From: a virus
Strand: one strand, 5' to 3'
DNA: 25,461 nt
IMG/VR virus record: IMGVR_UViG_3300031772_000253
Coordinates: 1 to 25,461 of that record
In this document: positions 22,476 to 25,461 of the stretch, piece by piece
Layout: every line of letters begins with the position of its first letter
Numbering within the stretch: the first letter of the stretch is position 1
Translations under genes and position numbers: made by a program
The notes under the pieces: model-generated
The model's database searches: none
Told to the model about the DNA's origin: nothing
Seen by the model: only the letters and a program-made list of their open reading frames with translations

Positions 22476-23018
22476 TTAGGCTAAATCTGTCTGACCAGAA
22501 TGAGATACAACTGTAGTCACATCTGTATCACCAGCCAATACACCGACATATGCATATGAGTCAACCATAACACCACGCTTATTCAGCGAGGAGCCTCGGC
22601 GCGTCACACGACAATCCTGAATCTTAAAGATACCGTTTGCGAGAGTCGAAGCCTCTGCATTAGCAGCAACTTGATGAATCTCAATATCGAAAGTAGAAGA
22701 TGTCAAGATCAAACCTGGGTCCAAGTGCTTTCCAATGGAGTTGGTGCCACCAATATTATTGGGAGCATCACCGGTTGCTGCAGTCCCCTCGTGAGGATTT
22801 GTGTAGTCTGCTTTTGTATAGCGAATAACTGCAAAAGATCCATTCACTGAATACGCGACTGGTTCATACGATTTAACTTCGTAGGTGCCAATAACCTCAA
22901 TAGGGATTACAGCCACGTCGACTGTGTAATTGAGATCAGTACAATAAGCGAGTGTCTTACCATCTAGCTTAATACGCGCGTTCGCGCCTGTGATAAAACC
23001 CGGTTTAACTCCTGCCAT
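22476..23018 (-). CDS. Tail tube protein (major tube candidate)
   Basis: This 180-residue protein has an ATG start with TAGGAG 6 nt upstream. It is the first tube-like gene after the sheath, has its own leader and its own strong terminator, and is the most compact of three paralogues; these point to the major tube subunit, which forms the inner tube of the contractile tail. Landmark stretches are MAGVKPGFITGANARIKLDG, EVKSYEPVAYSVNGSFAVIR, FDIEIHQVAAN and VTRRGSSLNKRGVMVDSYAY, the alternating pattern expected of a tube-fold beta barrel. The 70-nt leader holds small hairpins and a TATAAT further upstream, suggesting an independently started, well translated message. In the standard arrangement sheath and tube are adjacent; here the HNH gene separates them. 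Confidence 0.75.
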   Translation of the reverse strand: MAGVKPGFITGANARIKLDGKTLAYCTDLNYTVDVAVIPIEVIGTYEVKSYEPVAYSVNGSFAVIRYTKADYTNPHEGTAATGDAPNNIGGTNSIGKHLDPGLILTSSTFDIEIHQVAANAEASTLANGIFKIQDCRVTRRGSSLNKRGVMVDSYAYVGVLAGDTDVTTVVSHSGQTDLA

Positions 23019-23089
23019 ACTTTTCTCCTAATGGTGTTTCAGTTCACCGTATCGTGACATTTTTTTAAGCCAACTACTGGCTCAAGGAG

Positions 23090-23095
23090 ATTATA
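23090..23095 (-). promoter_or_regulatory. TATAAT candidate promoter of the tube gene
   Basis: The minus strand reads CCCTGCTATAATCTCC 72 nt upstream of the tube ATG, just beyond the 3' end of the HNH-kinase gene. It would give the tube gene its own transcript independent of the insertion. A -35 box is not evident. Confidence 0.4.
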
Positions 23096-23132: not shown

Positions 23133-24131
23133 TTAATTTGCCAAAAGCCAGTCGTAGACCTCATCCCAGGTACCTGAGAATGTAAATAGACCCTTATTAT
23201 TTAAGGCTTCATACCTAGCGATACGCCTGTCTATTGTGGCAGTTATCTTGCCACCGCGGGAGCTTATCCTAGATAGGATGGTGTCCTTATTCTCGCGAAG
23301 ATATATTAGTGTTGCTTGGATTCCGTGGGTTTCTAGTGTTTTTTTCATACGCTTGGCTTGTATTGGAGTGACTACCAAGTTTGCCTTGTCGCCTGGTGTC
23401 GCCGCCAACTCTAAGCACTTCTCAAACGTGTGACTATCATAGTCCACTATGTTGAACCTGTCTGTTAGTTTATTAGCTAATGTGGTTTTACCACAACCAC
23501 TGGGTCCGGCTAGGATGTACACTGCATGGCTCGGCATCTTGTTTGATTTCTTTAAGTTGTTATTAGCCCATAAAGGCTGTAGGTTGCTGTGGTGACAAGC
23601 TTTTTTAAGCTCTTCAGCATCTTCGAGATTGAAGCTGGATATTGGTATCACGTGGTCAATGTGCCAACCTTTACGAGACCAGTTGTCCCAAGACATACCC
23701 GGCTGCCATTTAGATTCTAGATGTAGCTTAAGTTCTTCTATTGAGCAACCGAGATCTCTGACCGCAGAACCTGCTTTCTGACCGTTCTTTATGGCTGCAT
23801 TAAGACGTGCCCTTAGTGCAATAGATAGTTTAAAGTTAACGTCGCCAATATATCTTTGACGTCTTTCTTCTCGCCTATCTCTGCGGTCAATCTTTTTAAC
23901 TATTATTCCCGCTATTATTTTTTCTTTATAGCGAATATGTCCAGCGTCTGTGTTGCATCTTTCAGAACAGTACTTCTTATTTTTGGAACGCGAGATATCC
24001 AGGAATCCTGTCTTACAGGCCTCGCACTGTCTACCTATTGGTGATAGTGTTATCTTGTAACAAGATTGGCAAATCTTGGCAATAGACTTGGTAGATTTTA
24101 ACTGATTATTACATTTTATGCAGAGTTTAAT
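23133..24131 (-). CDS. HNH endonuclease fused to P-loop kinase-like domain; non-canonical start
   Basis: Translating upstream of the first ATG (23696) shows an open frame back to 24143. Counting from an ATT at 24129-24131 (332 residues), four Cys pairs make two zinc-ribbon-like units (C4-C7, C21-C24, C36-C39, C55-C59), followed by a basic linker, then LGCSIEELKLHLESKWQPGM and the HNH core GWHIDHVIPISSF (His157, Asp159, His160) with HHSNLQPLWANNNLKKSNK. These are typical of phage homing-type HNH nucleases. Directly after the core is a Walker A motif, ILAGPSGCGKTT (209-217), opening a ~130-residue nucleotide-kinase-like domain. No ATG, GTG or TTG precedes 23696, a start that would remove the zinc ribbons and half the nuclease. 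ATT with GAGGGGG upstream would give (M)KLCIKC, a usual HNH N-terminus. It is either an ATT-initiated gene or one silenced by a start mutation. It is a mobile insertion between sheath and tube. Confidence 0.8.
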   Translation of the reverse strand: MKLCIKCNNQLKSTKSIAKICQSCYKITLSPIGRQCEACKTGFLDISRSKNKKYCSERCNTDAGHIRYKEKIIAGIIVKKIDRRDRREERRQRYIGDVNFKLSIALRARLNAAIKNGQKAGSAVRDLGCSIEELKLHLESKWQPGMSWDNWSRKGWHIDHVIPISSFNLEDAEELKKACHHSNLQPLWANNNLKKSNKMPSHAVYILAGPSGCGKTTLANKLTDRFNIVDYDSHTFEKCLELAATPGDKANLVVTPIQAKRMKKTLETHGIQATLIYLRENKDTILSRISSRGGKITATIDRRIARYEALNNKGLFTFSGTWDEVYDWLLAN

Positions 24132-24134
24132 AAA

Positions 24135-24170
24135 AATGCCCCCTCAAGAATTATACCTTGAGGGGGCATT
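24135..24170 (-). terminator. Terminator hairpin after sheath gene, also HNH gene leader
   Basis: On the minus strand AATGCCCCCTCAAG pairs perfectly with CTTGAGGGGGCATT over 14 bp around an 8-nt loop, followed by TTTATT. It lies 25 nt after the sheath stop. The 3' arm contains GAGGGGG, the only plausible ribosome binding site for the full-length HNH gene, so the same hairpin could hide that site in read-through transcripts. Confidence 0.88.
24150..24155 (-). promoter_or_regulatory. TATAAT in the hairpin loop, candidate HNH promoter
   Basis: The minus strand reads AAGGTATAATTCTTG, spanning the loop of the sheath terminator, 19 nt upstream of the ATT. A transcript begun about 7 nt past it would lack the 5' arm of the hairpin, leaving the GGGGG and ATT single-stranded. 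Confidence 0.35.
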
Positions 24171-24194: not shown

Positions 24195-25461
24195 TTAGGC
24201 AGTTGCGCGCTGTATCGTGATTTCGCTCAAGATGAAGTCGATTCCTTCAACGATCTTGATCGTAACCTCTACAAAGATGGTATTACCCTCTAAGCGAACA
24301 ACCAGGTTTTTAAATCCTTGCGGTGCATCTGGGGTGCTTACCGTAATACCTTGAGTTAAGAAGCCATTCAAGATTGTGCTTGCAACACCTGCAATATCGG
24401 CCACCGAAACTGTGTTCTTCTTACCGACGTATACAGCTTCTAGCGAGTTGCGGAAGTTGAATGCAACGATGTCCGCTGCATAGATAACGTTGCCGCGGTT
24501 AAACACAAAGTTTCCGTCACGACCATAGGTTGTGTTATCAACAACCGTGCGGAATCCACCAGTCTGGGGATTCTCAAGGAAGGTGAGACCTGCCTGGATC
24601 GCTTCGTCAGTCTGCAGATCTGGATCGAAGTCTGTCACGATATCTGCATCAGGCGTAGACATAGGTTGTGCTGTCTGGCGAATACCCGAGCAATTAAGAT
24701 ACTTGAAGGTCATAGGTTCGCCGATTGGAGCGCCACCGCGTGCACCAGCAAGCAGACATGCGAGAGCCCATGGTTGGAACCACTTAATATTACCCTGTGC
24801 ATCGGATTGACGAACGTCTTGGATCACCAACTGTTGGCGAGCGTCAGATAGATCACCAGCCTTATCTTTGCAATTAGCAAAACTTGCTTTTAGAGCAAGA
24901 TATCCTTGACGCTCAGAGCGACGCTTGGTGGTCTTCATAAGAGAGATGTGTGTCTTGACAGCCTGGTGAATACCATCGATAGTATATGTGGAGGTTGCAT
25001 CAGTCAGACTGTCTGCCATATCACTGGTTGCATCCCAAGCAAACAAGGGAACAACTGCATTCACATGAAACTTCTCGAATTTCTCAAGGGCTGCCACGAT
25101 ACTAGCAGGCGAAGTACCGCCCTTAGCACCATTGGCCAATAGCGTCTCAGCGAGTGCATCAGGTAGACCCTTTACAGCTGGAGTTTCAAGAGAAGCCATC
25201 GAGCTTTGAGCGAATAGAGCAGCAACTTCAGAAGCATCTTTCTTAAGGCGGGCAGGTTGTGCAGTTGTAGCAGAAAGAGCACCAACAGTAGTAATGTTAT
25301 CCAGCGTATCAAGAGATAGTTGGTTATACAGCGTGCTAGTAAGTGAAGCGCTCCAGCCGCCGTAGGTAGCCGTATTGATCTCAGCAACAACATCCTTAAG
25401 AATCGCAAACCCTGATTTAGGAAGGACTACAGCGCCGAGGTTAGTAGTGAGAGTAATGTTT
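24195..25461 (-). CDS. Contractile tail sheath protein (5' part outside window)
   Basis: The frame is open from the right edge to the stop at 24195, 421 residues plus the cut codon; an internal ATG at 25199 (MASLETPAVKGLP) is not the start, because the frame upstream reads coherently (LGAVVLPKSGFAILKDVVAE, LTSTLYNQLSLDTLDNITT). Sheath hallmarks are the WFQPWALACLLAGARGGAPI stretch followed by a FLENPQTGGFRTVVDNTTYG region, then FNFRNSLEAVYVGKKNTVS and a C-terminal beta strand FVEVTIKIVEGIDFILSEIT that in this family contributes to the inter-subunit mesh. The sheath contracts round the tube to drive it through the cell envelope. The terminator just downstream suits an abundant structural mRNA. 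The N-terminal and variable outer domains are outside the window. Confidence 0.8.
   Translation of the reverse strand, partial: NITLTTNLGAVVLPKSGFAILKDVVAEINTATYGGWSASLTSTLYNQLSLDTLDNITTVGALSATTAQPARLKKDASEVAALFAQSSMASLETPAVKGLPDALAETLLANGAKGGTSPASIVAALEKFEKFHVNAVVPLFAWDATSDMADSLTDATSTYTIDGIHQAVKTHISLMKTTKRRSERQGYLALKASFANCKDKAGDLSDARQQLVIQDVRQSDAQGNIKWFQPWALACLLAGARGGAPIGEPMTFKYLNCSGIRQTAQPMSTPDADIVTDFDPDLQTDEAIQAGLTFLENPQTGGFRTVVDNTTYGRDGNFVFNRGNVIYAADIVAFNFRNSLEAVYVGKKNTVSVADIAGVASTILNGFLTQGITVSTPDAPQGFKNLVVRLEGNTIFVEVTIKIVEGIDFILSEITIQRATA

Follow-up and report, generated by a model that had tools for sequence, protein, structure and literature searches.

A terminator hairpin with a TATAAT loop as a candidate insulator and private expression unit for a putative HNH endonuclease gene in a contractile-tailed phage

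In T-even phages several homing endonuclease genes are locked by RNA hairpins, namely those of I-TevI, I-TevII, I-TevIII and segB in phage T4 and mobE in phage Aeh1 (PMC2988022). In these T4 and Aeh1 genes the ribosome site is paired within a stem when transcripts arrive from upstream, a late promoter inside or next to the stem bypasses the lock with RNAs too short to form it, and the ribosome sites of the T4 genes e and soc are hairpin-locked as well (PMC2988022). Another means of control is known from infC, which has a non-canonical AUU start codon and is repressed by IF3 (PMC5472188).

The DNA analyzed here, called the window, is the whole of the IMG/VR virus record IMGVR_UViG_3300031772_000253, a 25.5-kb fragment (25,461 nt) having on its minus strand the tail module of a contractile-tailed phage. 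Its sheath gene is homologous to sheath genes of named phages; the junction region behind that gene gave no DNA match in named phages, and a short query returned chance-level matches only. The features of the junction are as follows, all on the minus strand.

24195..25461 (-), tail sheath gene (phrog_279 tail sheath, E 5.6e-24), its 5' end cut by the window edge
24135..24170 (-), hairpin of 14 bp (15 with a G-U pair) with TATAAT as loop, putative intrinsic terminator of the sheath unit and ribosome-site lock
24150..24155 (-), TATAAT, putative -10 element that is exactly the apical loop, kept in the relative L003
24143 (-), predicted transcript start at the 7th nt after TATAAT, giving the RNA 5'-GGGGGCAUUUUUAUU, placed there from the TATAAT-N6-ATG peak of the phage group
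24139..24145 (-), GAGGGGG, putative Shine-Dalgarno sequence in the 3' arm
24132..24136 (-), TTTTT, T-run of the terminator
24129..24131 (-), ATT, putative AUU start codon, with no ordinary in-frame start, ATT also in L003 and a selected N-terminus
23133..24131 (-), putative HNH endonuclease gene, product with a Cys-rich N-terminus and a C-terminal P-loop kinase-like domain
23090..23095 (-), TATAAT (TGCTATAAT) belonging to the promoter of the tube gene and lying downstream of the HNH gene; corresponding TGnTATAAT-type sites precede the tube gene in relatives
22476..23018 (-), tube-like gene, the next downstream gene in all close relatives

The leader of the tube gene (window 23018-23075) reads about TTAAAAAAATGTC..GGTAAGG.GAACCGCAAC.CC, is conserved in many relatives and is possibly a structured or regulatory leader. 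A search for Rfam families gave none in the window or its relatives, this leader included.

The hairpin at the sheath/tube junction

The hairpin begins 24 nt past the stop codon of the sheath gene, and its arms (24170-24157 and 24148-24135) are 100% complementary over 14 bp, with one inner G-U pair bringing the stem to 15 bp in RNAfold and leaving an apical loop of exactly TATAAT (24155-24150). An earlier note on this DNA had described a 14-bp hairpin with TATAAT in the loop and GAGGGGG in the 3' arm, and this was confirmed from the sequence and by RNAfold. The fold has an energy of -29.3 kcal/mol, with a z-score of -3.87 against dinucleotide shuffles. From the 3' arm to the start the order is GAGGGGG (24145-24139), CATTTTT (24138-24132) and ATT (24131-24129), with TTTTTATT following GAGGGGG. 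The layout is that of an intrinsic terminator, as the stem is rich in G+C and the T-run of the transcribed strand comes immediately after it, and since the T-run lies on one side only, with the other strand lacking one, the terminator would be one-directional.

Among 179 terminator-like hairpins from related phages (1.2 Mb in all), only three have a perfect TATAAT loop, the window hairpin being one of them, and intergenic -10 sites placed in stems of at least 11 bp were observed 3 times among 413, with 0.065 expected from shuffled flanks. A hairpin with a TATAAT loop is more than chance. A 15-bp hairpin with TGGTATAAT in its loop was also seen between two tail-fibre-like genes of another phage (G012:48092-48131, locus L119), having no Shine-Dalgarno sequence in the arm and representing a promoter-like loop without an endonuclease gene.

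The HNH gene and its junction in relatives

The HNH frame spans 336 codons from stop to stop, with its upstream in-frame stop being the TGA within TTGAGG, and holds no ATG, GTG or TTG until 23696, about 145 codons in; the ATG found in the 5' arm (24169-24167) lies in a different frame. The ATT at 24131-24129, located 7 nt after GAGGGGG, opens the frame as (M)KLCIKC. This had been called the only position doing so, and while the N-terminus and its spacing held, a second in-frame ATT is present at 24137-24135. The encoded protein has an HNH core (WHIDHVIPISSF...NLQPLW...N..K) with PHROG matches, Pfam gave no HNH match above cut-offs, and the gene is present or absent among relatives at one and the same junction. 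PDB sequence matches of the HNH profile were weak and in a helical region, and they were disregarded. The C-terminal P-loop kinase-like domain was modeled with moderate confidence (pLDDT 67), with small-molecule and polynucleotide kinases as its nearest folds, and the protein may be considered a putative endonuclease-kinase fusion. That domain (window 23133-23530) is also found C-terminally in further putative endonucleases of the phage group, as follows.

G023:44941-45579, recurrent C-terminal P-loop domain
G015:26166-26567, the same
G013:23710-24087, the same
G008:87449-87835, the same

The protein had no relative in bacterial genome contigs, and an alignment query for further HNH relatives gained little. 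Other HNH genes of the group are mostly arranged otherwise, for example with leaderless starts or in overlap with the upstream gene.

One close relative of the HNH gene was found, on a 167.5-kb contig (L003), with 61% protein identity and placed at the same sheath/tube junction, and the window and L003 are the two known orthologues of the HNH junction. Comparing the two genes, silent sites are saturated (pS 0.86) at an overall pN of 0.27, and within the first 70 codons pN is 0.30 and pS 0.79, with identities of 0.67, 0.68 and 0.45 at the three codon positions. Because the N-terminal codons are under purifying selection, the N-terminus is apparently translated in these lineages, despite the lack of an ordinary start in the window copy. 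The junction of L003 reads GCCTCCGTGG-TATAAT-GGCTACGGAGG-TTTTT-ATT-ATT-AAA, thus with a different stem from that of the window and with GGTATAAT, GGAGG in the 3' arm, the T-run and ATT-AAA kept. Such sharing of an 8-mer (GGTATAAT) and of the layout, at saturated silent divergence, would be hard to explain without selection. The proposal of ATT as the start thereby gained support, with the 61%-identical relative also having ATT there and with the N-terminus being selected, and AUU is likely the start codon of the HNH gene. L003 also contains a second HNH gene (L003:6972-7607), located before the tail chaperone gene and having TATAAA 6 nt ahead of its ATG.

Further relatives were gathered with the sheath protein, whereupon about 40 non-redundant sheath-proximal hairpins were compared. 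The usual order in these relatives is sheath gene, terminator, TGnTATAAT-type promoter, leader and tube gene, and in most of them a hairpin without TATAAT follows the sheath gene. Only three of the hairpins, those of the window, L003 and one additional relative (L031), have TATAAT or TGnTACAAT as part of the loop, and each directly precedes an extra gene; a few other sheath-proximal loops reach 5/6 of a -10 element by lax matching. In L031 the extra gene of the junction is a different one, the loop is TGATACAAT and the 3' arm has AGAGGG.

L031:1963-2562, extra gene encoding a 200-aa protein with no Pfam match, behind a loop-promoter terminator

The promoter-in-terminator part of the arrangement is clearer than the lock in L031, since the frame of the 200-aa protein opens 16 nt further downstream, at a second ATG having an AAGG of its own. 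A lock without a promoter also occurs, as illustrated by a relative (L038) whose HNH gene follows a hairpin having AGGAGG in its arm and no -10. In yet another relative, L008, which has no HNH gene, the junction reads AATGCCCTCCAAGG-TCGAGAGA-TCCTGGAGGG-TTTTT, with a stem close to that of the window and no promoter in the loop. From these sequences we infer that the gene may have settled behind an existing terminator, whose loop would later have become a promoter.

Promoter, lock and competing explanations

The use of TATAAT as a -10 element in this phage group was analyzed through its distance to start codons. In 1.2 Mb of the group, 20 long ORFs have a TATAAT at a distance of exactly 6 nt ahead of their ATG, compared to none at 1-5 nt and about 6 at each distance beyond 6 nt, with controls at 6 nt giving 0 for the reverse complement ATTATA and 0-4 for other hexamers. 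A 6-nt peak is the signature of leaderless transcripts; it establishes TATAAT as a -10 element of the group and puts the start of transcription at the 7th nt. The following are examples of TATAAT-N6-ATG.

G023 46011 (-)
G013 59556 (+)
G013 75312 (+)
L040 3553 (-)
L046 6497 (-)

This pattern suggests that leaderless transcripts are widespread in the group, several being from endonuclease-like genes; the peak itself is carried mainly by more distant group members and not by the window, L003 or L005 phages. All five intergenic TATAAT of the window lie on the coding strand, as do both copies of GGTATAATTC, likewise intergenic. The loop sequence matches the sigma-70 -10 hexamer in 6/6 positions. 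No -35 hexamer was found for it, and the TG of an extended -10 is missing in the window (AGGTATAAT), with TG present in L003 and L031.

RNAs started from the loops would read 5'-GGGGGCAUUUUU-AUU in the window, 5'-GGAGGUUUUU-AUU in L003 and 5'-AGAGGGUAUUU-AUG in L031, each beginning at its own ribosome site without the 5' arm. For the read-through RNA, folding gave a probability of 0.00 for an unpaired Shine-Dalgarno sequence in all three phages. The structures of the loop-started RNAs reached only -3.6 to -5.6 kcal/mol, and their duplexes with the anti-Shine-Dalgarno sequence -6.3 to -10.5 kcal/mol (-8.4 kcal/mol for the loop-started RNA of the window). Folding accordingly predicts a ribosome site that is fully locked in read-through RNA and nearly free in loop-started RNA.

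We consider it probable, with some room for doubt, that the hairpin acts as an insulator and private expression unit for the HNH (putative homing) endonuclease gene behind the sheath gene. In RNA coming from upstream the hairpin would stop sheath transcripts at the T-run, with the transcript ending at 24135..24170, and in RNA that reads through the ribosome site is predicted to be shut within the stem. As DNA, the loop would serve as a TATAAT -10 element, and a start at the 7th nt thereafter (about 24143) would lie inside the 3' arm, so that the hairpin could not form and the RNA would present GGGGG 7 nt ahead of the AUU start, with AUU probably keeping nuclease output low. The nuclease would thereby be uncoupled from the transcription unit of the sheath gene and expressed from a weak unit of its own. 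A wider claim, which we would sooner question than rely upon, is that one 36-nt element combines terminator, lock and promoter with a conserved AUU brake, and that it is recurrent, having evolved independently for endonucleases or other cargo behind strongly expressed structural genes in a manner avoiding overexpression. The earlier note had suggested such a three-in-one element following the early/late logic of T4; comparison of the junctions supported its terminator, lock and promoter, but not that logic or the late timing. Because the upstream sheath gene is itself structural and the promoter is of the host type TATAAT, as opposed to the T4 late type, insulation against transcription of the sheath gene is favored over a temporal switch.

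The strongest competing explanation, which we nonetheless find rather unlikely, is that the hairpin is solely the sheath terminator, with the HNH gene being translated at a trickle from leaky read-through, the Shine-Dalgarno sequence in the arm being a brake and TATAAT occurring by chance. That most relatives have post-sheath terminators without TATAAT, that L038 combines a lock and an HNH gene without a -10, and that the window copy has neither -35 nor TG all agree with this explanation. However, GGTATAAT was kept in L003 at saturated divergence and TGATACAAT is found in L031, -10 loops occur only where an extra gene follows, and the three long-stem -10 sites exceed the 0.065 expected. It is improbable that the palindrome would instead be a DNA operator surrounding the promoter, to which the endonuclease or some other regulator binds, with RNA folding being secondary. 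I-TevI does bind an operator at its own late promoter in autorepression (PMC2988022) and the palindrome here is centred on the -10, but the stems differ between the window and L003, the G-U pairs of L003 suit RNA and not a DNA palindrome, and the T-run is on one side only. Translation from the 5'-arm ATG (24169), followed by a -1 frameshift at the T-run into the HNH frame, is likewise improbable; although an ATG is found at the stem base in both the window and L003, being in frame in L003, it has no Shine-Dalgarno sequence before it, the leader peptides are unlike each other, A_TTT_TTA is an imperfect slip site and the loop-promoter transcripts would lack the 5'-arm ATG. Finally, we give next to no credence to the possibility, raised in the earlier note, of a dead gene having lost its start codon, since in spite of about 145 codons without an ordinary start the frame stays open for 336 codons, its HNH and P-loop motifs are intact, purifying selection includes the N-terminus and the L003 orthologue has ATT, not ATG.

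In a wider scan the pattern CCTCC..TATAAT..GGAGGTTTT was found in 47 viral contigs and the ATTATA control in 20, with 12 of those 20 being contigs with palindromic loops found by both patterns. A gene start (an ORF of at least 40 codons) was located 4-13 nt past the hairpin for six or seven distinct TATAAT hairpins and for one control, these being small counts. Those with a near gene start include a MobB-like HNH family, the HNH gene L189 (with one full-length family member only), an integrase and a dUTPase. Nearly all 33 loci of the MobB-like family (L201-L233), whose HNH genes lie directly behind a tail-tube-like gene, keep the hairpin, the T-run and the ATG. The family was considered as a second conserved loop promoter and rejected as such, as its alignment showed that the Shine-Dalgarno sequence and exact TATAAT are not kept, and it was regarded as a parallel only. 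Its terminator stems are variable, with a TATTTAT in the loop, the T-run and the ATG being invariant, and TATTTATA has as its complement TATAAATA, which is the core of T4 late promoters.

Comparison with known systems

The MobB-like loci resemble the window in that a terminator hairpin, T-run and start codon directly abut an HNH gene that follows a tail structural gene, and one of their clades has a TATAAT loop with a GGAGG arm; they differ in belonging to another HNH family, in starting with ATG and in not keeping the Shine-Dalgarno sequence and exact TATAAT family-wide. With infC the HNH gene would share an AUU behind a Shine-Dalgarno sequence as a brake on translation. However, IF3, the infC product, autoregulates that gene, whereas the AUU would here only lower output.

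Genes e and soc of T4, which have AUG start codons, carry the same lock on read-through RNA as is predicted here but are virion or lysis genes, not endonuclease genes, and use T4 late promoters. Like the T-even endonuclease genes, the window has a predicted stem lock on read-through RNA and a putative promoter inside the stem, yielding transcripts too short to form it. The window differs from those genes in that its stem abuts a T-run and would terminate structural-gene transcription, that its putative promoter is of the host type TATAAT where those genes have a phage late promoter, that the gene upstream is structural, which would leave no early/late switch, that the likely start is AUU and that the phage group is unrelated.

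Gene finders limited to ATG, GTG and TTG would truncate genes of this type, and having alleles with and without the gene at one junction makes the origin of a newcomer endonuclease's expression signals testable; here the signal was apparently gained when the loop of a terminator already in place became a promoter. It seems that a phage group unrelated to T4 uses a trick known from that phage, together with a rare AUU start that the relative has as well. If this is true, T4-style control of a selfish nuclease arose again in that group, in a form more compact than that of T4 and also ending the transcript of the neighbouring gene.
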